Positions 617-47,244 of a stretch of DNA of 47,625 nucleotides are shown in pieces. Numbering within the stretch: the stretch's first letter is position 1; each line of letters opens with the position of its first letter. A program made the translations under genes and the position numbers. Under the pieces are notes generated by a model. The model made no database searches. It was not told where the DNA came from and worked only from the letters and a program-made list of their open reading frames with translations. This DNA is from Steroidobacter sp. (GTDB lineage: Bacteria; Pseudomonadota; Gammaproteobacteria; Steroidobacterales; Steroidobacteraceae). The stretch covers positions 1-47,625 of the forward strand of contig JAICPY010000025.1 of the NCBI GenBank assembly GCA_025929585.1. The letters are read 5' to 3'.

Positions 617-716
617 GAGAAGGCGATAGGCGATCGGGGATAGGGGATAGTCAGAGAGATCCGGAGTGAATCCGGCTTCTGACTATCGCCTATCGCCCAT
701 CCCCTATCGCCTTCTC
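617..716. repeat. Heptad inverted repeat, GGGGATA family
   Basis: The left arm (617-656) is made of GCGATAG/GGGGATA units ending in GTCAGAG. The right arm (677-716) is its imperfect reverse complement and begins TTCTGAC. The loop is about 20 nt and holds a small CCGGA/TCCGG stem. The paired arms span about 40 bp. It lies between the PEBP gene and the 3' end of rocD. TAG triplets recur at multiples of 7 on the strand entering each arm. Confidence 0.85.
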
Positions 717-721
717 ATCGA

Positions 722-1951
722 TCACGACGCTTTTGCCAACGCTTCGGAAGCGTCCAAAACCTGTTGAAACGTTTCCAGCGCCCAGTCTATTTGGGCCTTC
801 TCGATTACGAGGGGTGGTGCGAAGCGGATGACCGTGTCGTGCGTGTCCTTCGTGAGGATGCCTGCTTGCATGAGTCGTTCAGCGACTAAGCGCGCACTCA
901 CCCGTGTGGAGTCGAACTCGACTCCACACCACAAGCCCTTACCTCTCACGTCGCGAATCAACGGACTTTGGATGCGATGCAAGCCCGCGAGCAGGTAGTC
1001 GCCCAGCTCGCGGCTGCGTTCGATCAGTCCGTCCTTCTCCAACAATTCGAGAGCGGTCAGACCGACGGCCGATGCTAGTGGGCTGCCGCCGAAAGTGCTG
1101 CCGTGATCGCCTGGAGTGAACACGTCCATAACTTCGCGTCGTGCGAGAAATAGCGAGACCGGCAGAATGCCTCCACCTAGCGCCTTGCCAAGCACTACTG
1201 CGTCAGGCTTCACGTTCTCATGGTCGCAAGCGAGCATGCGCCCAGTGCGGCCAAGACCGGTTTGAACCTCATCGGCGATGAGCAACACACGATGCGCACG
1301 GCAAATCTCGGCGCATCGCGCCAAGTATCCCGGCGGCGGAATTCGGATGCCTGCTTCGCCCTGCATCGGCTCGATCAGGAATGCGGCGGTGTTCGGCGTG
1401 ATTACGCGCTCCAAAGCATCCGCATTTCCAAACGGCACGATGCGCACGCCCGGCATGAACGGACCGAAGCCATCGCGGTATTGAGCTTCGGTAGACAAAG
1501 CAATCGCCCCCAACGTGCGACCGTGGAAATTGCCTTCACAAGCAATGATCTGCGCCTCGTCTTCTTCGACGCCCTTGACCTTGTAGGCCCATTTACGCGC
1601 GGCCTTGATGGCTGTCTCCACTGCTTCTGCGCCGGTGTTCATCGGCAATGCCATATCCATTCCAGTCATCGCGCAGGCGCGTCGCAGGAACGGCTCCAGG
1701 CGATCCGTATCGAAGGCGCGGGAGACGATCGACAGTCTTTGTGCTTGGGCGCTGAGGGCGGCTAGGAGCGCCGGGTGGGCGTGGCCGTGGCTGACCGCCG
1801 AGTACGCGCTCATCATGTCTAGATAGCGCGCGCCGTCCGTATCCCAGACGAACACGCCTTCACCGCGAACCAATGTCACGGGAAGCGGCGCGTAATTTCT
1901 CGCGCACACGCCGTGATCCGAACCCTTCGCCCCGAACGCAGTGTTATTCAT
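722..1951 (-). CDS. rocD: Ornithine aminotransferase (ornithine--oxo-acid transaminase)
   Basis: A 409-residue class III PLP-dependent aminotransferase. Visible motifs are NTGAEAVETAIKAARKW (cofactor phosphate region), IADEVQTGLGRTG (Asp contacting the PLP ring), GKALGGG with the Schiff-base lysine, and HGSTFGGSPLA. The N-terminal NYAPLPVTLVRGEGVFVWD block is typical of RocD rather than ArgD. The family transfers the delta-amino group of ornithine to 2-oxoglutarate, giving glutamate semialdehyde/P5C, which the nearby proC product can reduce to proline. The frame stays open upstream to 2575, but that part is antisense to the alpha/beta hydrolase, so the ATG at 1951 is chosen. Acetylornithine aminotransferase is a less likely alternative. 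Confidence 0.9.
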   Translation of the reverse strand: MNNTAFGAKGSDHGVCARNYAPLPVTLVRGEGVFVWDTDGARYLDMMSAYSAVSHGHAHPALLAALSAQAQRLSIVSRAFDTDRLEPFLRRACAMTGMDMALPMNTGAEAVETAIKAARKWAYKVKGVEEDEAQIIACEGNFHGRTLGAIALSTEAQYRDGFGPFMPGVRIVPFGNADALERVITPNTAAFLIEPMQGEAGIRIPPPGYLARCAEICRAHRVLLIADEVQTGLGRTGRMLACDHENVKPDAVVLGKALGGGILPVSLFLARREVMDVFTPGDHGSTFGGSPLASAVGLTALELLEKDGLIERSRELGDYLLAGLHRIQSPLIRDVRGKGLWCGVEFDSTRVSARLVAERLMQAGILTKDTHDTVIRFAPPLVIEKAQIDWALETFQQVLDASEALAKAS

Positions 1952-2095
1952 TTGTCTCGCCCGAATCTGTAGACGGGTCGCGTCACCGGAAGTGACATTG
2001 CCGACGCATGGTAGCTTACCGATCTTGCGCATGGCCATCAGGCGCTGTCCGAATCGAGCGTGACGATAAGGGAGCAGTTTGGTTACTCTCGACCA

Positions 2096-2743
2096 ATGAT
2101 CGACGTCGCACACACTTCCAGCCAATCCCTCGCGATTCCAGGCCCCAGAGGAGAACTGGAAGCACTGATCGACGCACCGGAAAGCGGCGCTCACTCGCAA
2201 ATTGCCGTGATCTGCCACCCGCACCCGTTGCATGGCGGCACGATGACCAACAAGGTCGCCCATATGCTCGGCAAGTCGTTCAACGCGGTGGGAGCCTCGG
2301 CGGTGCGATTCAATTTTCGAGGCGTGGGCCGCAGCGCAGGGGAGTATGCGCACGGGATCGGTGAGACCGAAGACGCGCTGGCGGTTGTGGATTGGGCTCG
2401 CATTCGCTGGCCTGGCGCACAGATTTGGATCGCGGGTTTTTCCTTCGGCGGCGCTGTGGCGATCCGCGCCGCAGGCGAGCGGCAGGTGCAAAGATTGATC
2501 ACTGTCGCGCCGGCAGTAGATCGAGTCGAAGTCTCGGCGGATAAATTGCCGCGCTGCCCCTGGTTGGTGATTCAAGGCGATGCAGACGAAGTCGTCCCCG
2601 CCGCAAGCGTGAGCTCGTGGCTAGATTCCATACCTCTTTCGCCCGATCTCGTCCTACTGCCCGGAGTCGGCCACTACTTCCATGGCAAGTTGAATGAGTT
2701 GAAGCATGAGGTTGTTGCCTGGCTTCAACGGCAACAAGGGTGA
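2096..2743 (+). CDS. Alpha/beta hydrolase (COG2945-type)
   Basis: A 215-residue single-domain alpha/beta hydrolase with an oxyanion-hole segment CHPHPLHGGTM and a conserved FNFRGVGRSAGEY block. The nucleophile elbow is GFSFGG, the acid is in GDADEVVP, and the catalytic His is in GVGHYFHGKL. The set matches the small cytosolic family often annotated as an uncharacterised hydrolase; the substrate is unknown. An in-frame GTG at 2060 would add 12 residues, but the ATG at 2096 gives the expected family N-terminus. The stop TGA (2741-2743) is the first TGA of a heptad array, with further TGAs at 2748 and 2755. It is divergent from rocD. Confidence 0.85.
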   Translation: MIDVAHTSSQSLAIPGPRGELEALIDAPESGAHSQIAVICHPHPLHGGTMTNKVAHMLGKSFNAVGASAVRFNFRGVGRSAGEYAHGIGETEDALAVVDWARIRWPGAQIWIAGFSFGGAVAIRAAGERQVQRLITVAPAVDRVEVSADKLPRCPWLVIQGDADEVVPAASVSSWLDSIPLSPDLVLLPGVGHYFHGKLNELKHEVVAWLQRQQG

Positions 2744-2919
2744 CGGGTGACGAGTGACCGGTGGCCAGGAGGAGCGCAAAGGCACACCTTCCGATCCGGT
2801 TCCTGATTTTGCAAACTTCGAGACAGGGCTTGAAGTTGTGGAGCACTACTCTCACTCTCACCCGTCACCCGTCACCCGTCACCCGTCACCCGTCACCCGT
2901 CACCTCGTCACCTGTCACT
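2738..2919. repeat. Heptad inverted repeat, GTGACGG family, with long loop
   Basis: The left arm (2738-2767) carries GTGACGG/GTGACGA/GTGACCG units. The right arm (2857-2919) carries about nine CGTCACC-type units. The loop is about 90 nt. The left arm contains the alpha/beta hydrolase stop codon. The right arm ends about 11 nt before the start of the TerB-like gene and leaves no visible Shine-Dalgarno sequence for it. The arms are unequal, the right being about twice as long. Confidence 0.85.
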
Positions 2920-2930
2920 GACCTTTAGCA

Positions 2931-3380
2931 ATGATCACCTCTCTAAAAAAACTCTTCAGCACCGAACCTGCAGTGACACGAGTTCTGGAGACCAAGGAGC
3001 CGTTGGAGTTGGCGACGGCGGCCTTGTTGCTCGAATTGGCGCGCTCGGATTTTTCGGAATCCGATCAGGAAGTGGAGGCGATCAAACATGTGCTGCAGCG
3101 CCGCTTTGGACTGCAAGACGAGGCGCTGAATGCACTGGTCGAGGACGCGACGCGGCGTGCGGATACTGCTGTATCGCTGCATGAATTTACACATCGGCTG
3201 AACCGGGAATTACCCGAGGACGACAAGCTGCACATCGTGGAGATGTTGTGGCGAGTGAGTCACGCGGATGGCCGCATCGATAAGCACGAAGAGCATCTGA
3301 TTCAGCGGATTGCAGGCTTGCTGCACATCTCCGACCGCGATCGGGTCAGGCTGAAATTGAAGGTGGTGGTGGGGGATTGA
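2931..3380 (+). CDS. TerB-like (tellurite-resistance TerB fold) protein
   Basis: A 149-residue, all-helical acidic protein. The core ATAALLLELARSDFSESDQEV, then LHIVEMLWRVSHADGRIDKHE and IQRIAGLLHISDRDRVRLK, is the TerB/DjlA-N-type repeat in which acidic residues (DxEV, DGxID) form a metal-binding site. Soluble proteins of this type are widespread and mostly uncharacterised; I would not infer tellurite resistance. The ATG at 2931 directly follows a heptad repeat arm and has no evident ribosome-binding site. A short hairpin and another heptad element follow the stop. Confidence 0.8.
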   Translation: MITSLKKLFSTEPAVTRVLETKEPLELATAALLLELARSDFSESDQEVEAIKHVLQRRFGLQDEALNALVEDATRRADTAVSLHEFTHRLNRELPEDDKLHIVEMLWRVSHADGRIDKHEEHLIQRIAGLLHISDRDRVRLKLKVVVGD

Positions 3381-3387
3381 GCAGAAC

Positions 3388-3405
3388 GCCCGATCTCAGT
3401 CGGGC
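3388..3405 (+). terminator. Terminator-like hairpin without T-tract
   Basis: GCCCGA (3388-3393) pairs perfectly with TCGGGC (3400-3405) around a 6-nt loop, 7 nt after the TerB-like stop. No run of T follows, so it may be only a 3'-end stabilising hairpin. Confidence 0.4.
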
Positions 3406-3415
3406 TGTGAATGAC

Positions 3416-3487
3416 GTGTAAGGTGTAGGCGTGTAGCGCCGAAGGCCTGCGTGTCTATTCTGAGCTCTACACGTTACACGCGTTCAC
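3416..3487. repeat. Heptad inverted repeat, GTGTAGG family
   Basis: The left arm reads GTGTAAG-GTGTAGG-CGTGTAG. The right arm (about 3463-3487) reads CTCTACACGTTACACGCG and is complementary. The unit is 7 bases and contains TAA or TAG. It lies between the convergent TerB-like and HU genes. Confidence 0.7.
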
Positions 3488-3531
3488 TTAGACACAGCAT
3501 TGCGAACGTACATCCCTGTACTGTCGAGGCG

Positions 3532-3556
3532 AGTCCGACACATGAAGTATCGGACT
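3532..3556. terminator. Hairpin downstream of the HU gene
   Basis: AGTCCGA (3532-3538) pairs with TCGGACT (3550-3556) around an 11-nt loop, 47 nt beyond the HU stop. There is no T-tract on either strand, so terminator function is uncertain. Confidence 0.35.
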
Positions 3557-3602
3557 GCCTGACCGATCTGTGGCGCAGCCGCTGCGGCGCCGGAACGGAT
3601 CC

Positions 3603-3914
3603 TTAGTTCACCATTTCCTTGAGGTTCTTCAGCGCAGCAATGCGCACTTTCTTGCTGGCGGGCTTCGCCTTGAACATCATTTTCTCACCGGTGAAGGGAT
3701 TGACGCCTTCACGTGCTTTGGTTGCAGGCTTCTTGACGACCTTCATCTTCAGCAAACCGGGAAGCGTGAACAGCCCCGAGCCCTTCAGGCTCTTCTTCAC
3801 GACGCCGCCCAGGGATTCGAACACATCGGACACCTGCTTCTTGGCAAGTCCCGTGTCTTTAGAAATCTGGGCAAGGATCTCCGATTTGGTCGGCGCTGCG
3901 TTCTTCTTTGCCAT
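3603..3914 (-). CDS. HU-family DNA-binding protein
   Basis: A 103-residue nucleoid protein of the HU/IHF fold. The N-terminal part (TKSEILAQISKDTGLAKKQV) is the helical dimerisation half. The beta-arm region has GLLKMKVVKKPATKAREGVN followed by PFTGEKMMFKAKPASKKVRI. The arm carries the usual N-P/F-T-G-E pattern that kinks DNA. It is about 12 residues longer than E. coli HU because of a Lys/Ala-rich N-terminus and a KNLKEMVN tail. The start is well supported by AGGAGA about 7 nt upstream on the minus strand, and a sigma70-type promoter is visible at 3990-4018. Confidence 0.92.
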   Translation of the reverse strand: MAKKNAAPTKSEILAQISKDTGLAKKQVSDVFESLGGVVKKSLKGSGLFTLPGLLKMKVVKKPATKAREGVNPFTGEKMMFKAKPASKKVRIAALKNLKEMVN

Positions 3915-3989
3915 TTGTAATCTCCTGTGTGAGTGACGAATCGCGCCGTCTAATGCTGATCGGTCGCGTACGAATTCAAGTCGCGCGGG

Positions 3990-4018
3990 AAAATAGCATA
4001 AGATTTAGCGCGGATTAA
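3990..4018 (-). promoter_or_regulatory. Putative sigma70 promoter of the HU gene
   Basis: On the minus strand TTAATC (4018-4013) is followed after 17 nt by TATTTT (3995-3990). The element lies in an A/T-rich patch and about 75 nt upstream of the HU start codon. Inferred from spacing and composition only. Confidence 0.4.
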
Positions 4019-4103
4019 GCAGCGCAAGCGTTTTTTTGCCTATTTTTTAAGGCTCAGACGCATTTGGCGAGCGATTCGTCGTCCACTTGCGACTTTCGCT
4101 GCA

Positions 4104-4675: not shown

Positions 4676-5209
4676 TCAGGTGATCAAGATGTACAGAGCC
4701 TGTAGACCGATGATGACGAAGAGGGCAGAAAGGTCGATACCGGCGATCGGCGGGATGATGCGCCGAACAGGAGCCAAAATGGGGTCGCAGATGCTCGCCA
4801 GCAATGCGGCGCCGGGGCTATAAGCGCCAGGAGCGATCCAGCTCAGCAGGATGTAGAGGAGGATGGCAAAGGTGTAGAACTGCAGGATCGTCAACAGCAA
4901 ATTCAACAGCGCCACCTGAATGAATTCACCGAGCACATCGACCCAGGGATAGGCGCCGAGCAGCCACAGCACGGCAGTCGCAGCGAATTGAACTACTAGC
5001 AGCGCGACAATCGACGAGGTGTCGATCTTTCCAATGGGCGGCAGAATCCGCCGCAGCGGGAGCACCAAAGGATTGGTCAACCGGATCACCGCTTGCGAGA
5101 GTTGGTTACGCGAATCCGCACGCACGAGCGGCAACAACACCCGTAGCAAGAACACGGTAACCAGCAGGACCTGCAGTAGGGTGCGGACGATAAAGATCAG
5201 GGCATCCAT
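4676..5209 (-). CDS. yggT: YggT family integral membrane protein
   Basis: 177 residues comprising two tandem YGGT domains. Each has a hydrophobic segment, then a proline/arginine-rich turn (NPLVLPLRRILPPIGKID; DPILAPVRRIIPPIAGID), then a second hydrophobic segment, giving about four to five membrane spans. The family is implicated in osmotic tolerance and membrane organisation and is commonly linked to proC/yggS, as here. The start at 5209 is separated from the proC stop by a composite repeat region (5214-5326). Confidence 0.93.
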   Translation of the reverse strand: MDALIFIVRTLLQVLLVTVFLLRVLLPLVRADSRNQLSQAVIRLTNPLVLPLRRILPPIGKIDTSSIVALLVVQFAATAVLWLLGAYPWVDVLGEFIQVALLNLLLTILQFYTFAILLYILLSWIAPGAYSPGAALLASICDPILAPVRRIIPPIAGIDLSALFVIIGLQALYILIT

Positions 5210-5213
5210 CGGA

Positions 5214-6153: not shown

Positions 6154-6351
6154 AGTCTACAGTCTGCAGTCTGTAGCGGAGAAGAAGAAAAGCTCGCGCA
6201 GGGAGTCCCTAGTCTCGACCCAAAGGGGAGAAGGACGAGTCCATAGTCTGCAGTCCGCAGTCTGTAGCCAGACGAGAGAGATCTGCACGTGACGCCCGAT
6301 CAGTGTGCTCGTTTCTGGCTGTGGACTACGGACTGCGGACTATGGACTAGC
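6154..6351. repeat. Heptad inverted repeat, AGTCTGC family, with an extra left arm
   Basis: The main hairpin pairs 6236-6271 (AGTCCAT-AGTCTGC-AGTCCGC units ending in GCCAGA) with 6313-6351 (beginning TTCTGGC) over about 38 bp around a 41-nt loop. Every mismatch between the arms is a transition. An additional left-type arm lies at 6154-6176 and a fragment at 6201-6219. The right arm contains the yggS stop TAG (6347-6349). It fills the yggS-proC gap. Confidence 0.88.
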
Positions 6352-7060
6352 TGTCCGGCTCGCGATCTCGCGCGCCGAACAACGCTGTCCCTATCCGCAC
6401 CAACGTCGACCCCGCCGCGATCGCTGCTTCGAGGTCATCGGACATGCCCATAGATAAGGTGTCGAGCGAGAGGCCTGCTGCCAGTAGCTCCTGCTCGCAT
6501 TGGAAAAGTTTGTCGAACCACGCCTTCTGAGCTTCGAAGGTTGTTTCGGGCGGTGGAATGCACATCAGTCCGCGCAGCTTCAATCGCGGTAACTCGTTTA
6601 CTTTGCGTGCGAGTGCCAATGCTTGTGCCGGTGGGATGCCGCCTTTGCCCGGTTCATCCTCCAGGCGCACTTGGATGCAGACTTGCAAGGGAGGCGCGTG
6701 ATCTGGGCGTTGATCGTTCAGGCGCAGGGCGATGCGCTCGCGATCGAGCGTGTGAGCCCAAGCAAAATTCTCCGCGACGCTGCGCGTCTTGTTCGATTGC
6801 AGTTGGCCGGTGAAATGCCAGGTGAGATCGAGCTCGGAAAGCTCGGCCAATTTAGGCAAGGCTTCCTGTAGATAGTTTTCGCCGAATTCCCGCTGGCCGC
6901 ACTCCGCCAGCGTCCGGATGGCCTGTGCGGGTTGACCCTTACTGATCGCAAGCAGCCGAACATCATCGGCGTAGCGGCCCGATTTAGATGCTGCGGATGC
7001 GATGCGCGTCCGGGTTTGAGCGAAGCGATTTCGCAGATGATCGCGATCCATTGAGCTCAT
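6347..7060 (-). CDS. yggS: YggS-family PLP homeostasis protein (PLPBP)
   Basis: 237 residues from the ATG at 7060. An internal ATG at 7051 is an alternative, and the frame is open to 7126. This is a type III fold PLP-binding protein. The Schiff-base lysine is K41 in LLAISKGQP, followed by FGENYLQEA, WHFTGQLQSNK, and the C-terminal SMGMSDDLEAAIAAGSTLVRIG phosphate-binding stretch. The family buffers vitamin B6 and affects amino-acid metabolism and is not itself known as an enzyme. It is co-oriented with proC and yggT and divergent from pilT. The stop lies within a repeat arm. Confidence 0.94.
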   Translation of the reverse strand: MSSMDRDHLRNRFAQTRTRIASAASKSGRYADDVRLLAISKGQPAQAIRTLAECGQREFGENYLQEALPKLAELSELDLTWHFTGQLQSNKTRSVAENFAWAHTLDRERIALRLNDQRPDHAPPLQVCIQVRLEDEPGKGGIPPAQALALARKVNELPRLKLRGLMCIPPPETTFEAQKAWFDKLFQCEQELLAAGLSLDTLSMGMSDDLEAAIAAGSTLVRIGTALFGARDREPDS

Positions 7061-7201
7061 CTGTGGTTGGCTAGTGCACGGCCCGTGCGATCGCGGTGAG
7101 CCCCGGATGCACCAGGTTGAGGGCAATTTCGAGCGCGAATTGCGCCGTCGAACATGCGGTTCAGCGTCGGCCTAAGTGGAAACTGCGGACTAGTTAACAT
7201 A

Positions 7202-7228
7202 TTGGGCTCGATACCGCTCCGCTATACT
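7202..7228 (+). promoter_or_regulatory. Candidate promoter for pilT in the yggS-pilT divergent region
   Basis: The 300-nt divergent region 7061-7360 holds TTGGGC (7202-7207) and TATACT (7223-7228) separated by 15 nt, a slightly short sigma70 spacing. The pilT start is about 130 nt downstream and has GAGGAAG at 7348-7354. A lone right-type repeat fragment (7183-7193) lies just upstream. Nothing else was recognised here. Confidence 0.3.
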
Positions 7229-7360
7229 TCCTGACGCTTGTCTCGAGGCTCGCGATGCATTTTTGCGGTCGTTTTCCCCGGTAGGCGCACCTAAGTCCGT
7301 GCTGTCGTGACGATGAGTTGAAACGATGCGCCCCGCTGGGCGTGATTGAGGAAGTAATTC

Positions 7361-8401
7361 ATGCCTGTCGATATCGCGCAGCTACTTGCGTTCGCCGTGA
7401 AGAATAACGCGTCCGATCTGCACCTGTCCGCAGGTGTGCCGCCAATGATCCGCGTGGACGGCGACATGAAGCGCGTCAACATGCCTGCACTGACACATAA
7501 AGAAGTGCACAGCATGGTGTACGACATCATGAACGACAAACAGCGCAAGGCTTACGAGGAATTCTACGAGACCGATTTCTCCTTCGAAATACCGAAGCTC
7601 GCGCGCTTTCGTGTGAACGCTTTCAATCAAAGCCGCGGCGCCGCCGCCGTGTTCAGGACGATTCCGTCTTTGATCATGTCGTTGGACGATCTGAATGCGC
7701 CGAAGATATTCAAAGACCTCTCGATGCAGCCTCGTGGTCTCGTCTTGGTAACCGGACCGACCGGTTCCGGTAAGTCCACGACACTTGCCGCGATGGTCAA
7801 TTACGTCAACGACAACAAGCCCGATCACATCATCACGATCGAAGATCCGATCGAGTTCGTCCACGAGAGCAAACGCTCGCTAGTCAACCAACGCGAAGTG
7901 CATCGCGACACGCTCGGCTTCAGTGAAGCGTTGCGTTCAGCTTTGCGCGAAGACCCCGACGTGGTTCTAGTCGGCGAAATGCGCGATCTGGAAACGATCC
8001 GTCTCGCGCTGACCGCTGCGGAAACCGGGCACTTGGTGTTCGGTACGCTGCACACGAGCTCTGCCGCGAAGACTATCGATCGTATTGTCGATGTTTTCCC
8101 GTCGGCCGAAAAAGAGATGGTCCGAACGATGTTGTCCGAGTCGCTGCGCGCCGCGATCTCTCAGTCGCTTCTAAAGCGCATTGGCGGCGGCCGCGTTGCA
8201 GCGCACGAGATCATGATCGGTACGCCTGCGATCCGAAATCTGATTCGCGAAGGCAAGATCGCGCAAATGTACTCCGCGATTCAGACTGGCCAGAAAGATG
8301 GCATGCAGACCCTCGATCAATGTTTGACCGAACTGCTGCAGAAGGGCATTGTCACCAAGGAAGAAGCCCGGTTCAGAGCGCAGAACAAGGACGCGTTCTG
8401 A
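7361..8401 (+). CDS. pilT: Type IV pilus retraction ATPase PilT
   Basis: A 346-residue hexameric secretion-type ATPase. The N-terminal PAS-like domain (ASDLHLSAGVPP) precedes the RecA-like domain. Walker A is GPTGSGKST (132-140), the Asp box is IITIEDPIEF, Walker B is VVLVGEMRDLET, and the His box is HLVFGTLHTSSA. The C-terminal AIRNLIREGK motif is the signature of true PilT and is needed for retraction in characterised homologues. It acts at the inner-membrane base of the pilus, powering disassembly and twitching. Ribosome-binding site GAGGAAG is 6 nt upstream. Confidence 0.97.
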   Translation: MPVDIAQLLAFAVKNNASDLHLSAGVPPMIRVDGDMKRVNMPALTHKEVHSMVYDIMNDKQRKAYEEFYETDFSFEIPKLARFRVNAFNQSRGAAAVFRTIPSLIMSLDDLNAPKIFKDLSMQPRGLVLVTGPTGSGKSTTLAAMVNYVNDNKPDHIITIEDPIEFVHESKRSLVNQREVHRDTLGFSEALRSALREDPDVVLVGEMRDLETIRLALTAAETGHLVFGTLHTSSAAKTIDRIVDVFPSAEKEMVRTMLSESLRAAISQSLLKRIGGGRVAAHEIMIGTPAIRNLIREGKIAQMYSAIQTGQKDGMQTLDQCLTELLQKGIVTKEEARFRAQNKDAF

Positions 8402-8411: not shown

Positions 8412-8460
8412 CGGAGAGGGGATAGGGGATGGGGGATAGTGGGATCGGCTTTCGCCGATC
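8412..8460 (+). repeat. Single heptad arm (GGGGATA) followed by a short hairpin, pilT-pilU gap
   Basis: 8412-8440 reads GGGGATA-GGGGATG-GGGGATAG in the left-arm orientation, with no matching right arm. A 7-bp hairpin follows at once (GATCGGC 8443-8449 with GCCGATC 8454-8460, loop TTTC), then a T-rich stretch. It may act as an attenuator between pilT and pilU, or be a decayed element. Confidence 0.55.
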
Positions 8461-9682: not shown

Positions 9683-9686
9683 GGAT

Positions 9687-9772
9687 CGTGACTCGTGAAT
9701 CGTGATTAGCGGGTCGCAAGAGCGTAACCTATGCTTGTTCTTGCGACTCACTACCCGCGAATCACTAGTCAC
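9687..9772. repeat. Heptad inverted repeat, CGTGATT family
   Basis: The left arm (9687-9722) reads GTGACTC-GTGAATC-GTGATTA and ends in GCAAGAGC. The right arm (9736-9772) is its complement, beginning TTCTTGC. The loop is about 13 nt. It sits between pilU and its paralogue. Confidence 0.85.
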
Positions 9773-9786
9773 ATCTTGAGGTGGAT

Positions 9787-10905: not shown

Positions 10906-10907
10906 AA

Positions 10908-11057
10908 GGTGACAAGTGGCGGGTGACGAGTGACGGGGCAAGAGCCGCGTTACCTCGATCAGCGTCACGGATCTAGGTAGCTCAATAAAGAAGGTAGGCA
11001 AGCTGCGCCATCGCTTGAATTTGGAGCGGAATCTTCTATCTTCTTGCCCGTCACCCG
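10908..11057. repeat. Heptad inverted repeat, GTGACGG family, between convergent genes
   Basis: The left arm (10908-10944) carries GTGACAA/GTGACGA/GTGACGG units ending GGGCAAGAG. The right arm (11041-11057) begins TTCTTGCCCGTCACCC. The loop is about 96 nt. The right arm supplies the TGA stop (11051-11053) of the PyrK-like gene. The element serves two convergent 3' ends. Confidence 0.8.
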
Positions 11058-11932: not shown

Positions 11933-12024
11933 AGTCTACAGTCTGCAGTCCGTAGTCTGCAGCCAGAGTGTAAGGTGCGCCGTTACATCGAGCATTTCCG
12001 TTCTGACCTGCGGACTGCGGACTT
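11933..12024. repeat. Heptad inverted repeat, AGTCTGC family
   Basis: The left arm (11933-11967) carries AGTCTAC-AGTCTGC-AGTCCGT-AGTCTGC ending GCCAGAG. The right arm (12001-12024) begins TTCTGACCTGCGG. The loop is about 33 nt. It lies between pyrB and the PyrK-like gene and contributes the pyrB stop TAA (12023-12025). Confidence 0.85.
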
Positions 12025-13019: not shown

Positions 13020-13124
13020 TAAGTCTGCAGCGGTTTAGTCCTTGGTCCACGGCAAGCGTGCGGATGCGCCGATCGGCTTTCCACTTCTGGCTGCAGACTA
13101 ATGACTGCAGACTACGGACTTTCA
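13020..13124. repeat. Heptad inverted repeat, AGTCTGC family, degenerate left arm
   Basis: The right arm (13084-13124) is intact: TTCTGGCTGCAGACT, then units to ACGGACTTTC. The left arm (13020-13050) keeps only AAGTCTGCAG, TTAGTCC and TTGGTCC at the expected spacing. It lies between ruvX and pyrB. Confidence 0.65.
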
Positions 13125-14268: not shown

Positions 14269-14363
14269 GAGTCCGTAGTCCCCAGTCTGCAGTCCACAGC
14301 AGGAAGCGGCGCGCACCGCGCCTCCCTCTGGCTGCGGACCACGGACTACAGACTATGGACTTT
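14269..14363. repeat. Heptad inverted repeat, AGTCTGC family
   Basis: The left arm (14269-14300) reads AGTCCGT-AGTCCCC-AGTCTGC-AGTCCAC followed by AGCAGG. The right arm (14325-14363) begins CTCTGGCTGCGGACC. The loop of about 20 nt contains GCGCGCACCGCGC. The tonB stop TAG (14353-14355) is in the right arm. Confidence 0.85.
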
Positions 14364-15246: not shown

Positions 15247-15257
15247 GGCGGAGAGAA

Positions 15258-15397
15258 GCCGATAGGGGATAGGGGATAGGGGATAGTCAGAGGAAGAGTT
15301 TGCGCGGCAGCGAAATGGCGATCGATGCGGTGAATGATGATTCGAGCAGTGCCGATGTTTTTCTGACCATCCCCTATCCCCTATCCCCTATCGCCTT
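15258..15397. repeat. Heptad inverted repeat, GGGGATA family, overlapping the end of gshB
   Basis: The left arm (15258-15292) is CGATAGG-GGATAGG-GGATAGG-GGATAG ending TCAGAGG. The right arm (15361-15397) begins TTCTGACCATCCCC. The loop is about 68 nt. The last codons of gshB (15374-15397) lie inside the right arm, and translation passes two TAGs out of frame before stopping at the third. Confidence 0.88.
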
Positions 15398-16348
15398 CAA
15401 TCTTCTCTCAATCGCTTCCATCAACAATCCTGCGATTTCAGTGCCGAATTGTTTATCGAGCTCTCGGACGCCGGTGGGGCTCGTCACGTTGATCTCAGTA
15501 ACGAAGCCGCCAATCACGTCGAGGCCGACGAATAACATGCCGTGCTTGCGCAGCGTAGGTCCGATTTGATTCACCAGCCAACGATCGCGTTCATTGAGCT
15601 CGCGACCTTCTCCTCGCGCGCCGGCCGCGAGATTGCCGCGATTGTCCGACTCGGTCGGGATGCGAGCGAGCGCGTAGGGTGCAGGCTCGCCATCGATGAC
15701 TAAGATGCGCGTATCGCCGGTCGAGACGATGTCAGGGATGTATTTCTGCACGATCGCGAAGCGCGTGCCGTATTCCGTCAGCGTCTCGAAAATGACATTT
15801 GCATTCTTGTCGCCGCGTTCCACGACGAAAATCGAGCGCCCTCCCATCCCATGCAGTGGTTTGCAGACGATGCGCAGTTGTTCGCGTAAGAACGCATGCA
15901 TGTCCGGCATATCGCGTGTGATCAACGTCGGCGCGCAGCACTGCGGGAACCAGGCGGTGAACACCTTCTCGTTCATGTCTCTCAATCCTTGAGGTCGGTT
16001 CACGATCAGCGCACCTTGCTCCTCAGCCCGATCGAGAATGTACGTCGTATAGATATATTCCATGTCGAATGGCGGATCCTTGCGCATCAACACGGCGTCG
16101 AACTCGCCCAGTTTCGCAATCTTTGCTTCGCCTAAGTCGAACCAGCTCTTGGAGTCGTCCCTGACTGTCACGGGTCGAAGCCGCCCAAAGGCGACGCCAT
16201 CCTGGAGCCAAAGATCTTTCTGCTCCGCGTACAGCAATTCCCAGCCGCGCTTCTGAGCCGCCAGCAACATCGCCAACGTCGTGTCTTTCGCCGGTTTGAT
16301 AGACGAAATGGGATCCATGACGACGACAAGGCGGATGGGGGAAGGCAT
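15374..16348 (-). CDS. gshB: Glutathione synthetase
   Basis: 324 residues from the ATG at 16348; the frame is open to 16459, but that part runs into a heptad repeat. The N-terminal VVVMDPISSIKPAKDTT is diagnostic. The ATP-grasp part has RKDPPFDMEYIYTTYILD, KPLHGMGGRSIFVV and GLDVIGGFVTEINVTSPTG. It ligates glycine to gamma-glutamylcysteine in the cytosol. Its final residues (AIGDRG) are encoded by repeat units, so the C-terminus is set by the repeat. It is divergent from pilG across a region of about 480 nt. Confidence 0.96.
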   Translation of the reverse strand: MPSPIRLVVVMDPISSIKPAKDTTLAMLLAAQKRGWELLYAEQKDLWLQDGVAFGRLRPVTVRDDSKSWFDLGEAKIAKLGEFDAVLMRKDPPFDMEYIYTTYILDRAEEQGALIVNRPQGLRDMNEKVFTAWFPQCCAPTLITRDMPDMHAFLREQLRIVCKPLHGMGGRSIFVVERGDKNANVIFETLTEYGTRFAIVQKYIPDIVSTGDTRILVIDGEPAPYALARIPTESDNRGNLAAGARGEGRELNERDRWLVNQIGPTLRKHGMLFVGLDVIGGFVTEINVTSPTGVRELDKQFGTEIAGLLMEAIERRLKAIGDRG

Positions 16349-16396: not shown

Positions 16397-16468
16397 GTTG
16401 ACGGTTGACCGTTGGCGGCCAGAAGGCGGAGCAAGCGCTTCTCCCACTCTTGCTGTCAACCGTCAACG
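16397..16468. repeat. Heptad inverted repeat, GTTGACG family
   Basis: The left arm (16397-16427) is GGTTGAC-GGTTGAC-CGTTGGC ending GGCCAGAAG. The right arm (16449-16468) reads CTTGCTGTCAACCGTCAACG. The loop is about 22 nt, AGGCGGAGCAAGCGCTTCTC. It is unusual in lying at the 5' end of gshB rather than at a 3' end. Confidence 0.8.
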
Positions 16469-27269: not shown

Positions 27270-27424
27270 TGGTTGACGGTTGACAGTTGGCTGTTGACAG
27301 CCAGAAAAGAGCACGCAACCTTTTTTGCCGTCAACCGTCAACCGTCAACCGTCAACCGTCAACCGTCAACCGTCAACCGTCAACCGTCAACCGTCAACCG
27401 TCAACCGTCAACCGTCAACCGTCC
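27270..27424. repeat. Expanded heptad array, GTCAACC family (13 perfect copies)
   Basis: The left arm (27270-27303) holds four degenerate GTTGACG/GTTGACA units ending AGCCAGAAAA. The right arm (27328-27418) is 13 uninterrupted identical copies of CCGTCAA, ending 7 nt before the chpC ATG. The loop is about 24 nt with a T6 run. It is the longest pure array in the window. Read rightwards it has no stop codon in any frame, because one 21-nt period cycles through all frames; read leftwards each frame meets TGA every 21 nt. Confidence 0.95.
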
Positions 27425-27900: not shown

Positions 27901-28007
27901 GGTAATGCATAGGGGCAATGATTAGGGGTAGGGGATAGCAAGAAGTGAGACCCAGAAAAATTTCGCTCTTTTCTGAACTATCCCCTACCCCCTATTCATT
28001 ACCCCCT
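27901..28007. repeat. Heptad-like inverted repeat between convergent chpC and rsmE
   Basis: The left arm (27901-27939) reads GGTAATGCATAGGGGCAATG, then ATTAGGGGTAGGGGATAG. The right arm (27971-28007) reads TTCTGAACTATCCCC and on to TTACCCCCTTCC. An inner CAGAAAA/TTTTCTG stem closes a short loop. The two arms are nearly fully complementary; units are mainly 7 bases (GGGGATA, GGGGTA variants) with a TAATGCAT/TAATGAAT block outside. Confidence 0.85.
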
Positions 28008-28750: not shown

Positions 28751-28968
28751 GGGTGACAGGGTGACGGGTGACGAGTGACGGGCAAGCGGGGTAAAGGGCG
28801 TGCGGAGGTGTAGCCGTGTAGAGGTCAGAGTAGGCGTGCCTATCGTGACCGACACAATGTGTGTACATCCATACGTCATCTACACACGTCCGATATTCTG
28901 ACCCGTCACTCATCACCCGTCACCCGTCACGTTCTTCCGGGCTGTCACTCGTCACCTGAGCCCGTGCC
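28751..28968. repeat. Nested heptad elements in the rsmE-ampD divergent region
   Basis: An outer GTGACGG-family left arm (28751-28783) pairs with a right arm of CGTCACY units (28901-28968, interrupted by GTTCTTCCGGG). Inside lies a second pair with GTGTAGA units: 28805-28830 ending GGTCAGAG, and 28879-28904 with TCTACACACG ... TTCTGACC. Almost the whole 240-nt divergent promoter region is thus repeat sequence. No other promoter element was recognised. Confidence 0.75.
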
Positions 28969-32029: not shown

Positions 32030-32062
32030 TTTAGTCTGTAGTCCCTAGTCCGCAGGTCAGAG
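32030..32062 (+). repeat. Left-type heptad arm (AGTCTGC family) before the ATL gene
   Basis: TTAGTCTG-TAGTCCC-TAGTCCG ends in CAGGTCAGAG, the usual inner block of a left arm. No right arm follows within 100 nt; the nearest right-type arm is at 32532-32580, beyond the ATL gene. Confidence 0.7.
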
Positions 32063-32072
32063 ATGAAGGGAG

Positions 32073-32525
32073 ATGGCAGTCACGCGTAGAAACGAGAGCA
32101 GTGCTAAACAAACGGCGCAGTCCAAGCAGGTACGAGCTCCGACTAATGCAGAGCTCATCCTTGCGGCAGTTGCCCGCATTCCACGCGGCAGGGTCAGTAC
32201 ATACGGAGCCGTCGCGGAGCTAGCGGGATTGCCCCGTCGAGCACGGCTCGTTGGCACAGTGCTGAGGCAGACGCCAAGCGCTCGGCGAATTCCTTGGTTT
32301 CGCGTCATGAATGCCGGTGGACGTATCTCCTTTCCTCTTGGGAGCGATGCTTACGCAAGGCAGATGAGGAAACTCGAGGATGAAGGCGTCATTTTCATCG
32401 GTGGGCGAGTAGATCTCACTCAATACGGCTGGCCGGCAAGCGTCTCGTCTCTGGATGAATTCCTTTGGAGCCCTGACGCTGCCGTCGCCCCGTGCACAAG
32501 ACGAAGGCCCCGCCGCAGTCGCTGA
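32073..32525 (+). CDS. Alkyltransferase-like protein (MGMT family, Cys replaced by Trp)
   Basis: 150 residues with the DNA-binding half of O6-alkylguanine-DNA alkyltransferase: the helix-turn-helix region IPRGRVSTYGAVAELAG, then LRQTPSARRIPWFRVMNAGGRIS. Where the true enzyme has P-C-H-R-V this protein has P-W-F-R-V, so it cannot accept alkyl groups. In characterised ATL proteins the family flags O6-alkylguanine for nucleotide excision repair. It has an N-terminal Lys/Gln-rich tail and a C-terminal Arg-rich tail (TRRRPRRSR). It is flanked by left-type and right-type repeat arms. GGGAG lies directly before the ATG. Confidence 0.85.
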   Translation: MAVTRRNESSAKQTAQSKQVRAPTNAELILAAVARIPRGRVSTYGAVAELAGLPRRARLVGTVLRQTPSARRIPWFRVMNAGGRISFPLGSDAYARQMRKLEDEGVIFIGGRVDLTQYGWPASVSSLDEFLWSPDAAVAPCTRRRPRRSR

Positions 32526-32531
32526 GGGCTT

Positions 32532-32580
32532 ACCTGCAGACTGCAGACTGCAGACTGTGGACTACAGACCACGGACTCGG
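32532..32580 (+). repeat. Right-type heptad arm (AGTCTGC family) after the ATL gene
   Basis: CTGCAGA-CTGCAGA-CTGCAGA-CTGTGGA-CTACAGA-CCACGGA runs in the right-arm orientation 6 nt after the ATL stop. It is complementary to 32030-32062. The TTCTG inner block is not conserved. Confidence 0.75.
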
Positions 32581-37888: not shown

Positions 37889-38395
37889 ATGGAAAAGACG
37901 ATCGAGAGGCTGTTGTTTGCGAGCCGGTGGATATTGGCTCCCATCTATCTGGGCATGTCGCTGGCGCTGGTCGCCTTGGGCATCAAATTCTTTATGGAGC
38001 TGTACCACCTCATGTTCCACGTGGTGGAGATGGCCGAATCGGACCTGGTGCTCGTTCTGCTAGCGATGGTCGACATGGTCCTCGTCGGCAGCCTGATCAT
38101 CATGGTGATGTTTTCCGGTTACGAAAACTTCGTGTCCCGGCTGGATGTGGAGGAAGGTACCGAAAAGCTAGGCTGGCTCGGCAAGCTGGATGCCAACTCG
38201 CTCAAGCTCAAGGTCGCGTCCTCGATCGTCGCCATCTCCTCCATTCATCTATTGAGAGCGTTCATGGAGGTGCCCGGACACAAAAGCGAATCTCTGTTTT
38301 GGTACGTGATCATCCATCTCACCTTCGTGGTCTCAGCCGTGATGATGGGAGTGCTGGATAGAATCTCGTTCGCGGGGCATAGGCATAAGGATTAG
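37889..38395 (+). CDS. UPF0114 / YqhA family membrane protein
   Basis: 168 residues beginning [20 protein letters not shown]. Four hydrophobic segments are visible, including [21 protein letters not shown] and the C-terminal [30 protein letters not shown] and [18 protein letters not shown] are signature stretches. It is an inner-membrane protein of unknown function, full length. The TAG stop abuts a GTGATGAAG repeat array, shared with the convergent msrB gene. Confidence 0.9.
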
Positions 38396-38504
38396 TGATG
38401 AAGGTGATGCAGGTGATGTAAGTGATGAACGTAATGGAGGTCAGATTTAAGAGCGACGCCTCTTGCCTACATCACTTCCATCACCTTCATCACTTACGTC
38501 ACGT
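38394..38504. repeat. Inverted repeat of 9-base units (GTGATGAAG) between yqhA-like gene and msrB
   Basis: The left arm (38394-38455) is AGTGATGAA-GGTGATGCA-GGTGATGTA-AGTGATGAA, ending GGTCAGATTTAAGAG. The right arm (38460-38504) is CTCTTGCC, then TACATCACTTCCATCACC and on to TTACGTCACG. The loop is only a few nt. The right arm contains the msrB stop TGA (38499-38501), and the left arm begins at the yqhA-like stop. Confidence 0.88.
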
Positions 38505-39449: not shown

Positions 39450-39547
39450 TGGTGACGAGTGACGGGTGACGAGCAAGAAATATCAAAAGCACTCCAGCAT
39501 CCGCCTTTCTCTTACCCGTCACCGGTCACCCGTCACCCGTCACCTCA
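39450..39547. repeat. Heptad inverted repeat, GTGACGG family
   Basis: The left arm (39450-39480) is GGTGACGAGTGACGGGTGAC, then GAGCAAGAAA. The right arm (39507-39547) is TTTCTCTTACCCGTCACC with further CGTCACC units. The loop is about 26 nt. It lies just after the APC permease stop, upstream of the thioredoxin gene; the minus-strand TGA of the permease is 2 nt outside the array. Confidence 0.85.
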
Positions 39548-43651: not shown

Positions 43652-43664
43652 AGAACTTCAACGT

Positions 43665-44696
43665 ATGAAGCCGCTGCGTGTGCTGGTGTTGATGCACGAA
43701 AGCCTCGTGCCGCCGCCAAGCCTCAAGGGCTATTCGGACAAGGAAATAGACGAGTTCAGGACCGAATATGACGTGATGGCCGCGCTGGAAAAGGCAGGCC
43801 ACACGGTGCAAGCGCTGGGACTGCAAGACAACCTTGCCGATCTACGAACCGCCATTTCGGATTGGAAGCCGGATATCGCGTTCAATTTGCTCGAAGAATT
43901 TCAAAGCATCGTCACCTACGATCAATACGTCGTGGCGTTCCTGGAGTTGATGAAGCAGCCTTACACCGGCTGCAATCCGCGCGGCATGATGATCTCGCGC
44001 GACAAAGCGCTCTCCAAGCAGATCCTTTCCTACCATCGCATCCCCACACCGGGCTTTGCCGTGTTTCGCAAGGGCAGGCGCTATCGCTTGCCGCGTCGGC
44101 TCAAGTTTCCGTTGTTCGTCAAATCGGTGACCGAAGATGCCTCGGTAGGCATTTCTCAAGCTTCGGTCGTCTCGGATGCCGAACGATTGAAGGAGCGCAT
44201 CGACTTTATTCACGAACAGACGAATTCCGATGCGCTCGTGGAGGAATACATCGAGGGGCGCGAGCTATACGTCGGTGTTCTCGGCAACGAGCGCTTGCGA
44301 ACGTTTCCGGTGTGGGAAATGGATTTCGGCACGTTACCCGAAGTCATGGCCGGCATTGCGACTCGAAAAGTAAAATGGGACCGCCGCTACCAGAAGAAAC
44401 ACGGCATCAGCACAGGCGCGGCGCAGAACCTGCCCGAGGGCTGCGCTGCCTATCTAGACAAACTGTCTAAGCGTATCTATCGAGCGTTATCCTTGAGCGG
44501 CTATGCGCGCATGGATTTTCGAATGCGTCCTGATGGCAGCGTTTACGTGCTCGAAGCCAATGCGAATCCGAATATCAGCCACAAAGAAGACTTCGCAGAC
44601 TCCGCCCAAGCCGCCGGCGTGACTTACGAGGCACTGCTAGAGCAAATCATTCGCCTGGGATGTAACTACCAGGCGGCATGGAGGCATGAGGAGTAG
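43665..44696 (+). CDS. ATP-grasp ligase, D-alanine--D-alanine ligase-like
   Basis: 343 residues. The N-terminal domain is LRVLVLMHESLVPPPSLKGY, DIAFNLLEEFQS and MKQPYTGCNPRGMMISRDK. The ATP-grasp core is FPLFVKSVTEDASVGISQ (nucleotide Lys and Ser/Gly loop), VEEYIEGRELYVGVLG, and metal ligands in YARMDFRMRPDGSVYVLEANANPN. It differs from Ddl by DASVGI in place of the usual Ddl loop and by the context, with no peptidoglycan genes nearby. It probably forms an amide bond between a carboxylate and an amine, such as an amino acid added to a peptide or protein. Third gene of the operon. Confidence 0.85.
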   Translation: MKPLRVLVLMHESLVPPPSLKGYSDKEIDEFRTEYDVMAALEKAGHTVQALGLQDNLADLRTAISDWKPDIAFNLLEEFQSIVTYDQYVVAFLELMKQPYTGCNPRGMMISRDKALSKQILSYHRIPTPGFAVFRKGRRYRLPRRLKFPLFVKSVTEDASVGISQASVVSDAERLKERIDFIHEQTNSDALVEEYIEGRELYVGVLGNERLRTFPVWEMDFGTLPEVMAGIATRKVKWDRRYQKKHGISTGAAQNLPEGCAAYLDKLSKRIYRALSLSGYARMDFRMRPDGSVYVLEANANPNISHKEDFADSAQAAGVTYEALLEQIIRLGCNYQAAWRHEE

Positions 44697-44749
44697 TGAC
44701 AAAGTGACGAAGTCAGAGCATGAGGCGTGTGGCCTGCGGCAAAGAGGCC

Positions 44750-44839
44750 CCCACCCTAACCCTCCCCCGCAAGCAGGGGAGGGAATCGAAAGGACCCACC
44801 TTAACCTGCTCCTGCAAGCAGGGGAGGGAATCAAAAGAA
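44750..44839. repeat. Tandem 45-bp direct repeat
   Basis: Two adjacent 45-nt copies (44750-44794 and 44795-44839) share CCCACCYTAACC, then GCAAGCAGGGGAGGGAATC and AAAGRA. Each holds an imperfect CTCCY...AGGGGAGGG hairpin. This resembles intergenic palindromic sequences common in proteobacterial genomes. Confidence 0.85.
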
Positions 44840-44852
44840 CTCAGAAGGATTC

Positions 44853-44874
44853 GCCTCTCCCTCTAGGGAGAGGC
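44853..44874. terminator. Perfect 10-bp hairpin
   Basis: GCCTCTCCCT (44853-44862) pairs with AGGGAGAGGC (44865-44874) around CT. It is followed by CGCGAGCGTAGCGGCGGGTG, a phrase typical of dispersed intergenic palindromes. No T-run. Confidence 0.5.
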
Positions 44875-44968
44875 CGCGAGCGTAGCGGCGGGTGAGGGTC
44901 TGCTTGCGCAACTCACCTCAGAAAGGCCGACGAACACACTTGACGTGAAACATCGCGCTCGATCCTCT

Positions 44969-44997
44969 TGCACGCTGCACGCTGCACGCTGCACGCG
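44969..44997. repeat. Four-copy heptad array (TGCACGC)
   Basis: TGCACGC is repeated four times (first copy at 44969), running into GTCTGAC, the inner block of the outer right arm. It is a further unit type within the nest and has no complementary partner array. Confidence 0.7.
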
Positions 44998-45038
44998 TCT
45001 GACGTCGTCACCTCGTCACCATATCAACCGCCACGCTG

Positions 45039-47132
45039 TCACCTCGTCACTCCTTCGCTCCCACCGGTCTCGCTGGTTCGCCTCGACGTCCACTTCTTCA
45101 TCCATGCCTCCACCTCCTTGTGCCACTGGATGCTGTTCGCGGGTCTCAAGATCCAATGGTTCTCGTCGGGATAGATCAATAGGCGGCTTGGAATGCCGCG
45201 CCGCTGTAATGCGGTGAACGTGGAAATGCCTTGGGAGTAGGGCACGCGGTAATCGCGTTGGCCGTGAATCACGAGCATGGGAGTGCGCCACTGGATGACC
45301 TGATTCACAGGATTGTGTTTCTCGAAATTCTCGGGCACCTCGAAAGGAGGGCCGCCATGCTCCCATTCGTCGAACCATAGTTCTTCGGTCGTATACGCCA
45401 TCGACCGGCTGTCGAATATGCCCGCATGATTGATTAGGCACTTGAATGGTTCCGACCAGTTGCCTGCGATCCAATTGATCATGTAGCCGCCATAGGATGC
45501 GCCGAGCGCGCATGCACGACCCGCATCGAGCCACGGGAATTTTTCTACTGCGGCTTCGAAACCCTTCTGGAGATCTTCCAAAGGTTTGCCGCCCCAGTCG
45601 CCGCTGATCGAATCAGTGAATGCTTGGCCGTACCCAGGCGAGCCGTGAAAGTCGATGAAGACCGGTGCGAAGCCCGCTCCTGCGTAGGTTTGCGGATTCC
45701 ATCGATAGCTCCACGCGTTCCCGAAAGAAACTTGCGGTCCTCCATGCACGATGAAAGCGATCGGATAACGGCGTTTCGCGTCGAAGTTCGCCGGGCGCAT
45801 CACGTAACCGTAAACGGTCTCGCCGTTCGCGCCTGCAAACGTAAATTGCTCCGGGTCTCCCATCGCCACAGCAGACAATGCGCTGGCGTTCAACTTGGGC
45901 AGCTCACGCACATCGCCGTTGCGGGGATTGAGCACTTGAAGTTCGGCAGGGGATTTCAGCGAGGCGAGCGAATACAGAATCTCCTTGTCACCGACACTGA
46001 ACGATTCCACGCGCCCCGGTCCGGTCAACATCGTCGGCTTGCCGGCCTTCACATCGATCGACCACAGCGGATGCTGGCCGAAATGATCGGCGGTCGCATA
46101 AAGGGTGCGGCTGTCCTTCGCGAACGACATGCTGGCGACTGAACGATCCCACGCATCGGTCAGGGCGCGACGTTGCCCGCTCTTACGGTCCATCACGACA
46201 ATGTGGAAACGATCGGCTTCGAAACCGGGACGCTTCATCGAGCGCCACGCGAGCAAGTTGTTATCTGGCGAGTACACGGGTTGCGCGTCCCAGGCGAGGT
46301 TCTCCTCCGTGAGATTCCGCAAGCCACCCCCATCCACCGCGACCTCATAGATATCGAAGTTTGTCGACCACGGTTCGGACTTACCTTTGATCCTGGCGTT
46401 GAAGGCAATCATCGAGCTGTCAGGCGAGAAGGCATACTCGCTTGCATCCCCGAACGGCTTGGAGGGAATGTCGGCATCGAGCGCATGGCTGACGGAGCGT
46501 GGTTCGCCCAGACGATTGCCCTCGATCTGCGCCACGAAGAGCTCGGAGTTGCGATGATCGCTCCAGGTATCCCAATGACGGATGAACACCCGGTCGAATG
46601 TCATGCCGCTTTCGGGTGAAGCCGCGCTCTTCTTCAGACGCTCACTGGTGCACGCGAGCGTCTCGCAGTCGCGAAAGACCTCCAGCGTAAATGCAATGCG
46701 GTTACCGTTCGGTGCAATCTGAAACGATCCAACGTCCAGTGGCAGGTCCGTGATTTGTTCCGCCTCGCCTCGCTGGCCCGTCAGGCGCCAGATTTGCGAG
46801 GAGCCGCTGCGCGTCGACAGAAAGTACACGTAAGCACCGTCCATCGACCATTGCGCCGAATGATCGTTTTCAGGATGAGTCGTCAGTCGACGAGGCTGTG
46901 CGCCTTTCGTGATCGCATCCACTATCCACAGATCGGTGCGCCCACGATTCGCGGCAACGTCTGTTTCCCGTAACGTGAACACCGCCCACTGCCCATCCGG
47001 AGATAGAGCAGGCTCGGAGACACGCTGAAGTCTGACGAGATGCTCGACTGAGAATGGCTCGTTATCTCGAGCGGTGGCGTAAGCACAGAAGAGCGCAGCG
47101 CACGCAAGTGCGAAGAGGCGAGACACGAGCAT
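45039..47132 (-). CDS. S9-family (prolyl oligopeptidase/acylaminoacyl peptidase-like) serine peptidase, exported
   Basis: 697 residues from the ATG at 47132 (GGAG 6 nt upstream). A signal peptide (MLVSRLFALACAALFCAYATA) directs export. A seven-bladed-propeller region (about 30-410, with repeated SPDG/WSMDG and TDLWIVD motifs) precedes the alpha/beta-hydrolase domain. The nucleophile is S546 in GASYGGYMINW, the acid is in VIHGQRDYRVP and the His in YPDENHWIL. FIVHGGPQVSFGNAWSYRWN is typical of S9C/DPP-type enzymes. It probably degrades peptides in the periplasm. Its stop is the second, in-frame TGA of a repeat arm. Confidence 0.93.
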   Translation of the reverse strand: MLVSRLFALACAALFCAYATARDNEPFSVEHLVRLQRVSEPALSPDGQWAVFTLRETDVAANRGRTDLWIVDAITKGAQPRRLTTHPENDHSAQWSMDGAYVYFLSTRSGSSQIWRLTGQRGEAEQITDLPLDVGSFQIAPNGNRIAFTLEVFRDCETLACTSERLKKSAASPESGMTFDRVFIRHWDTWSDHRNSELFVAQIEGNRLGEPRSVSHALDADIPSKPFGDASEYAFSPDSSMIAFNARIKGKSEPWSTNFDIYEVAVDGGGLRNLTEENLAWDAQPVYSPDNNLLAWRSMKRPGFEADRFHIVVMDRKSGQRRALTDAWDRSVASMSFAKDSRTLYATADHFGQHPLWSIDVKAGKPTMLTGPGRVESFSVGDKEILYSLASLKSPAELQVLNPRNGDVRELPKLNASALSAVAMGDPEQFTFAGANGETVYGYVMRPANFDAKRRYPIAFIVHGGPQVSFGNAWSYRWNPQTYAGAGFAPVFIDFHGSPGYGQAFTDSISGDWGGKPLEDLQKGFEAAVEKFPWLDAGRACALGASYGGYMINWIAGNWSEPFKCLINHAGIFDSRSMAYTTEELWFDEWEHGGPPFEVPENFEKHNPVNQVIQWRTPMLVIHGQRDYRVPYSQGISTFTALQRRGIPSRLLIYPDENHWILRPANSIQWHKEVEAWMKKWTSRRTSETGGSEGVTR

Positions 47133-47149
47133 CGCAAACTCCAAAGAAG

Positions 47150-47244
47150 TCTTTGGTCCGCAGTCTACAGTCCACCGCCGGAACCAAGAAGGGGCGCACT
47201 CATGGGCTCTGGCTGAAGACTACGGACTGCGGACTGTGGACTTG
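47150..47244. repeat. Heptad inverted repeat, AGTCTGC family
   Basis: The left arm (47150-47174) is TTTGGTCCGCAGTCTACAGTCC. The right arm (47207-47244) begins CTCTGGCTGAAGACTACGG and ends GTGGACTTGC. The loop of about 32 nt contains CAAGAAGGGGCGCACTC. It lies between the FIST gene 3' end and the S9 peptidase 5' end; the FIST stop TAG is immediately outside the arm. Confidence 0.82.

Follow-up and report, generated by a model that had tools for sequence, protein, structure and literature searches.

Intergenic regions of a Steroidobacter sp. genome carry inverted repeats whose arms are short tandem arrays of 7- to 9-bp units. These were followed up from a 47,625-nucleotide stretch (the window), which is the complete contig C53 of a draft assembly (G000; 5.13 Mb, 297 contigs). 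On balance, we lean towards reading them as dispersed, non-autonomous miniature elements resembling REPINs (repetitive extragenic palindromic (REP) doublets forming hairpins), with arms remodelled by slippage and a putative mover responsible for their spread. The elements show family-wide dispersal, gain or loss site by site and expansion of each arm; some species lack any element at these sites, and others have another unit family or a REPIN-like doublet there. The whole element would be copied only rarely, moved by a putative enzyme, after which its loop would drift neutrally while its arms were held near the family sequence, with replication slippage extending or homogenising each of them independently. 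It is proposed that copies last behind stop codons because a transcribed hairpin would be tolerated there, being harmless or mildly useful, and would be harmful in promoters.

The seven-base periodicity reported by the first-pass annotation was sharp. In the window, lag 7 gave 7 exact-match runs of at least 12 and lag 9 gave 1; the other lags from 4 to 13 gave none, and any longer lag with exact runs was a multiple of 7; in 506 kb of other contigs there were 29 such runs at lag 7, 11 at lag 8 and 4 at lag 9. An inverted-repeat scan (arm at least 16, identity at least 80%) of 948 kb, comprising the window and stretches of other contigs, returned 235 inverted repeats, including 141 periodic ones (best lag 7, 8 or 9 with lag identity at least 0.55), of which 86 had lag 7, 23 lag 8 and 32 lag 9. 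Period 7 therefore extends beyond the window, across a sample of 24% of the genome. Besides the seven-base units, 8-mers (44694) and 9-mers (38394, a site missing from the earlier list) are also present, which the first-pass annotation had not told apart.

The pairing of the arms was equally marked. A scan for arrays that was blind to complementarity, covering 1.21 Mb (24% of the genome) and seeking a convergent partner within 220 nt, found 423 arrays, with 138 left arrays facing a convergent right array and a single divergent arrangement. Both arms belonged to one unit family in 117 of the 138 convergent pairs, compared with 20.5 expected from the margins, which upholds the earlier description of matched arms. 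Random placement in the 948 kb predicted 7.0 ± 2.3 convergent and 6.8 divergent arrangements, against 120 and 1 observed, a null that is generous to the mobile-element reading because placement was also allowed in genes. Units had been called site-specific; they do vary by site, but each site draws on about a dozen genome-wide families. Counts by family are descriptive only, because families and core were defined after viewing part of the same data, the E pattern is short, and several unit patterns match reversed sequence too (145 control loci). Elements had been reported at about 25 boundaries; the unit patterns, which miss degenerate arms such as those of the GTGTAGG element at 3416, place an array in 21 of the 33 window gaps of at least 40 bp.

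From outside to inside, each arm consists of a unit array, often followed by a core, GYMAGA (GTCAGA, GCCAGA, GCAAGA or GTAAGA), and then the loop, with the units reading inward. This architecture is the same for 7-, 8- and 9-bp units (GTGACGG, GTGACGAG and GTGATGAAG), and GYMAGA is present on many arms of different unit families, bearing out the claim of a common core beside a variable unit. In the 1.21 Mb the core is found on 66 of 114 left and 62 of 114 right arms, 88 of the 114 elements having it on one side or both, compared with a frequency of 1.65% in shuffled spacers. The first ~10 bases past the core are purine-rich, and the median loop is 39 nt after trimming. Some loops contain another element or a lone arm (window 28760-28931; L194 11742-11957; L157).

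Predicted folding energy was -47.4 kcal/mol for an element's own arms, -47.3 after swapping arms within a family, -22.8 after swapping between families and -23.3 after shuffling. Pairing is thus far above shuffled controls, as anticipated, but is a property of the family and not coordinated within each element. Co-evolution of arms within elements was accordingly rejected: in the complementarity-blind arrays, own arms were no more alike than other arms of the same family in 6 of 7 families tested, GGGGATA showing a weak likeness (1 of 60 permutations reached the observed value). The arms also lengthen separately. An element on another contig (L281) has a left arm of 11 GGGAATC units, with no GGGAGTC, and a right arm of 12 GACTCCC units (reverse complement GGGAGTC), with no GATTCCC; the arms carry different unit variants and each therefore expanded on its own. 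The elements recognised in the window are given below, with strand where one was assigned.

617-716 (arms 617-655 and 678-716): GGGGATA-family element, core GTCAGA
2738-2919: GTGACGG element; the gap is only -4 to 48 bp in 11 congeners
3416-3480: GTGTAGG element with short arms
6238-6348: AGTCYGY element, core GCCAGA; additional left arm at 6155-6174
8413-8445, plus strand: GGGGATA-family left arm following a T2SSE-family (pilT-like) gene
9688-9772: CGTGATTAGCGGGT element (CGTGATT), core GCAAGA; in congeners the orthologous site lacks an element or holds another family
10908-11055: GTGACGG element, core GCAAGA / TCTTGC
11934-12023: AGTCYGY element
13020-13120: AGTCTGC element, degenerate
14277-14361: AGTCYGY element
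15255-15398: GGGGATA element, core GTCAGA, arm complementarity 95%
16397-16467: GTTGACG element
27271-27423: GTTGACG element; right arm (27328-27423) a perfect array of 13.7 copies, left arm about 4 copies
27909-28006: GGGGGTAATGATT-family element, core GCAAGA
28759-28931: GTGACGG element with a GTGTAG-type arm inside the loop
30419-30474: CGTGATT-family element
38394-38494: 9-bp GTGATGAAG element, core GTCAGA
39451-39544: GTGACGG element, core GCAAGA
44694-45050: 8-bp GTGACGAA arms; TAG stop codon (44694-44696) overlapping the first unit, spacer about 285 bp
47156-47241: AGTCYGY element

Four sites differ from their first description. The GGGGATA site at 8412 has its left arm, but the right arm is not recognisable; the site at 27901, also assigned to GGGGATA, belongs to the GGGGGTAATGATT family; the stretch 6154-6348 holds two left arms and one right; and the site at 32030 has its left arm after one gene and its right arm (32536) after the next. 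At this last site (32031-32576) the left arm, AGTCTGC with GTCAGAG, lies behind a symporter gene and the right arm behind a PF01035 (alkyltransferase-like) gene (32073-32525). Cargo status for this gene between the two arms was rejected: it is probably native, since strong matches occur in 10 of 13 congeners and the copy in G002 directly follows an upstream gene. An imperfect 45-bp tandem duplication with CCCGCAAGCAGGGGAGGG (44750-44837) represents another repeat class. Rfam gave no matches in the window at the gathering threshold.

Gene context, based on a simple gene caller written for this analysis, is skewed towards gene ends. The 141 periodic inverted repeats comprise 77 between co-directional genes, 25 between convergent genes, 14 between divergent genes and 25 touching coding sequence, where random placement of the intergenic repeats in intergenic space predicts 60 co-directional, 22 convergent and 33.7 divergent; the median distance is 7 nt to a stop codon and 50 nt to a start. 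Set against 12 same-genus stretches (1 to 12 congeners per gap), the 12 window gaps with arrays are longer than the median of their congeners by a median of 86.5 nt, and the 7 without differ from it by -12 nt, so that the elements look inserted.

At the orthologous site 9683-9786, G000 has a gap of 104 bp with a CGTGATT element. Among nine congeners, six have 8-17 bp at this site, one has 77 bp without an element, G008 has 91 bp with an AGCGGTT-armed element bearing AGTCAGA, and G002 has 218 bp with an ACGGGG element nested within an ACGGAG element. The different unit in both arms that the first-pass annotation foresaw in sister species is thus observed, with three unit families in three species, a result from one site.

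Alternative occupancy recurs in Pseudomonas, at a site between genes that we take to be priA and argS. The 15 readable loci of 30 behind priA comprise two with heptad elements, four with REPIN-like doublets and nine with neither, one of which retains a single REP-like remnant, by eye. At two further sites compared in five species, heptad element and REPIN-like doublet are again alternatives, and at one of these an intrinsic-terminator-like hairpin, shared by all five species, comes after the heptad element. REPIN labels here follow consensus sequences that we take to be those of REPINs. They also follow the published architecture (PMC3116915).

Within a Pseudomonas mosselii genome (L084, G331), 60 overlapping three-unit matches to AGCTNCA were found, and 20 fetched array sites gave, by pattern, a convergent pair in 11 and a divergent pair in none. 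The core occurs on 15 of 31 arms, compared with 4.3% in shuffles, a test that is partly trivial because the unit itself supplies GCAAG.

Individual families are narrowly distributed, in counts that take in G000. The GTGACGG unit (20-base pattern) was found in 2 of 60 genomes, with 336 overlapping matches in G000 and 44 in G008, and in 5 of 274 genomes across the class. The GGGGATA pattern was present in 4 of 60 genomes, with GTCAGA-cored arms in three other genomes of the family (L224, L226 and L231) and an element without the core in L223. GGGAATC arrays occurred in 2 of 369 genomes, G000 itself having 15 matches. In a genome from a different family within the class, direct 7-bp blocks of TTGGTCA, then GTGACGG, then GTTGATT lie in one place (L173 1420-1610).

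Several observations weigh against mobile miniature elements. The weakest point is the unrelated loops, which slow copying would explain, as would growth in place. With 14 shorter loops set aside, one of the remaining 100, in the non-heptad Y family, matched another loop at E 0.001, and 15 of the 17 matches at E 0.05 were 10-15 nt long; transposition would usually leave some sibling loops, although the comparison covered 24% of the genome. The core is absent from 48 of 114 left and 52 of 114 right arms. Some arrays are partnerless, including 67 left arrays in the 1.21 Mb, the GTGACGG arrays in four fetched stretches of G008 (L227-L230), which are not in inverted pairs, and the L173 arrays. Among the compared gaps, 7052-7360 is 192 nt longer than in congeners without any array, and 3381-3602, scored as without arrays at +140 nt, holds the unrecognised GTGTAGG element. 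No target-site duplication was seen by eye at priA-argS, the other empty sites being too diverged. Finally, an inverted repeat of another, non-heptad kind flanks the sole Y1 transposase gene of G000, which disfavours a link there to a RAYT (REP-associated tyrosine transposase).

Capture of loops from elsewhere was rejected separately, as only 5 of 100 loops match other places in the 1.21 Mb, partly through nested arms. A distinct TCTCGCAGCGGCGC inverted-repeat family (L197 5007-5146, L184 15850-15970) has loops partly common to its copies (34 nt at 85%) and, unlike the heptad families, resembles miniature inverted-repeat transposable elements (MITEs).

Growth in place, without movement, is the strongest alternative and is judged improbable. 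A local hairpin seed behind a gene would expand by 7-9 nt slippage, selection for a stable 3' hairpin keeping the arms complementary. The separately homogenised arms of L281 and 27328-27423, the unrelated loops and the direct block-wise arrays of L173 all suit this, as does the retention of mostly the same sites by two Xanthomonas species. However, identical units, ends and core return at tens of sites, arms exchanged within a family pair as well as an element's own, and the 8-17 bp gaps of six congeners at 9683-9786 offer no seed.

Slightly less probable still are selected cis elements, either arrays binding a chromosomal protein or bidirectional terminators, which would have spread through selection and recombination, not transposition. 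Four units per arm is the mode of the GGGGATA family (38 of 64 arrays), the left and right core variants are often unlike within one element, and in P. mosselii AGAAAAAGC (either strand) lies in 9 of 20 fetched sites, some sites ending in a terminator-like GCTTTTTCT ahead of the right arm. Against this, a single binding protein is hard to reconcile with a genome that holds about a dozen dissimilar units, terminator-like matches in 20 kb of the window number 21 compared with 16.7 ± 5.0 when shuffled, and a hairpin beside the core is barely more frequent than in shuffles (18% and 14%). A short GC hairpin with a T tract is a weak feature in G000, terminator-like centres being found at some P. mosselii sites, and the Pseudomonas site with a separate terminator-like hairpin behind the element, kept in all five species, also speaks against a terminator role.

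Of 60 genomes, 21 contain Y1_Tnp, among them G000 with its one gene. In G008 (L213) three inverted repeats (2229-2315, 5050-5147 and 7575-7675), with two 8-bp CGCGGGTT units in their arms, have a Y1_Tnp gene among them, and the surroundings of the Y1_Tnp genes of G044 and G046 showed no periodic inverted repeat made of 7-9-bp arrays of these families. A telomerase-like reverse transcriptase resembling DRT10, adding templated units to DNA ends before end joining, would account for an identical inward-reading unit in the two arms, and DRT10 is described as producing 9-nt repeats (PMC12632851), but it is very improbable: RVT_1 genes, numbering one in G000 and three in G007, were not found in the array-bearing G008, G044 and G046, which disfavours a reverse-transcriptase link.

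The elements are real and striking, and are partly described already, paired heptamers being known from Xanthomonas and paired 7-9-mers from Geobacter. The first-pass annotation knew of no described mechanism; no demonstrated one was found, but inverted array pairs have been published for both Xanthomonas (PMC4692102) and Geobacter metallireducens (PMC2700814). In two xanthomonads, GGGAATC repeats are reported to number 186 and 183 and their convergent pairs 70 and 75 (PMC4692102). Like the GGGNATC heptamers of Xanthomonas and Nostoc, the present elements have a 7-bp tandem unit, are intergenic, lie in convergent pairs near behind open reading frames and are few between divergent genes (PMC4692102). 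Unlike them, one genome here holds about a dozen 7-, 8- and 9-bp families with a common core, and congeners carry another family at an orthologous site. Those heptamers prefer four units (PMC4692102), which is the mode here only in the GGGGATA and GCGGTTA families, and most families here, including GTGACGG, GTTGACG, AGTCYGY and GTGATGAAG, do not fit GGGNATC or GGGANTN.

Sites in Geobacter metallireducens, most of them paired, hold four octamers, three 8-9-mers or five heptamers, and classes 1 and 2 show variable distance between paired opposite-strand sites (PMC2700814). By eye, the ACGGAG element of G002 is similar to TCTCCGTS, the class 2 unit. These repeats were read as possible IHF/HU binding sites, and the portion of that account consulted gives no core motif or empty-site comparison (PMC2700814).

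REPINs and bacterial interspersed mosaic elements are likewise described as extragenic convergent doublets with a variable spacer, downstream of genes (PMC3116915, PMC3733652). The present elements share the two convergent arms and variable spacer, and at Pseudomonas sites are replaced by REPIN-like doublets. Unlike REPINs, their arms are tandem arrays and not GTAG-tagged REPs, and no RAYT association was found in G000. GTAG is present in 60 of 228 arms, frequently in AGTCYGY (24/42), GGGGGTA (12/12) and family F (6/8), and rarely or never in families B7 (0/44), A (4/36) and D (7/48). No Y1_Tnp gene flanked by these repeats, as a cognate RAYT would be, was seen among those viewed in G000, G008, G044 and G046, and the internal sequence common to copies that marks MITEs was found in 1 of 100 loops.

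A wider unification is conceivable, though doubtful: a single class of mobile hairpins with interchangeable arms, whose mover would read the core GYMAGA...TCTKRC while 7-9-bp arrays were swapped between unit families, so that Xanthomonas heptamers, Geobacter octamers and Pseudomonas AGCTNCA elements would form one system. The scattered reports from Xanthomonas, Geobacter and the REPIN niche of Pseudomonas are in any case joined here in one testable pattern, with comparisons by species of sites that are empty, hold one unit family or another, or hold a REPIN-like doublet. A mover, if found, would account for many intergenic regions of such genomes, as the share of array-bearing gaps in the window illustrates.

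Multi-unit families with a common core were not recognised in the literature searched, itself of partial coverage, and unit strings used as queries gave nothing related by title among the matches listed. The named best matches of the ProC protein encoded in the window were mostly from gammaproteobacteria, with some from betaproteobacteria.

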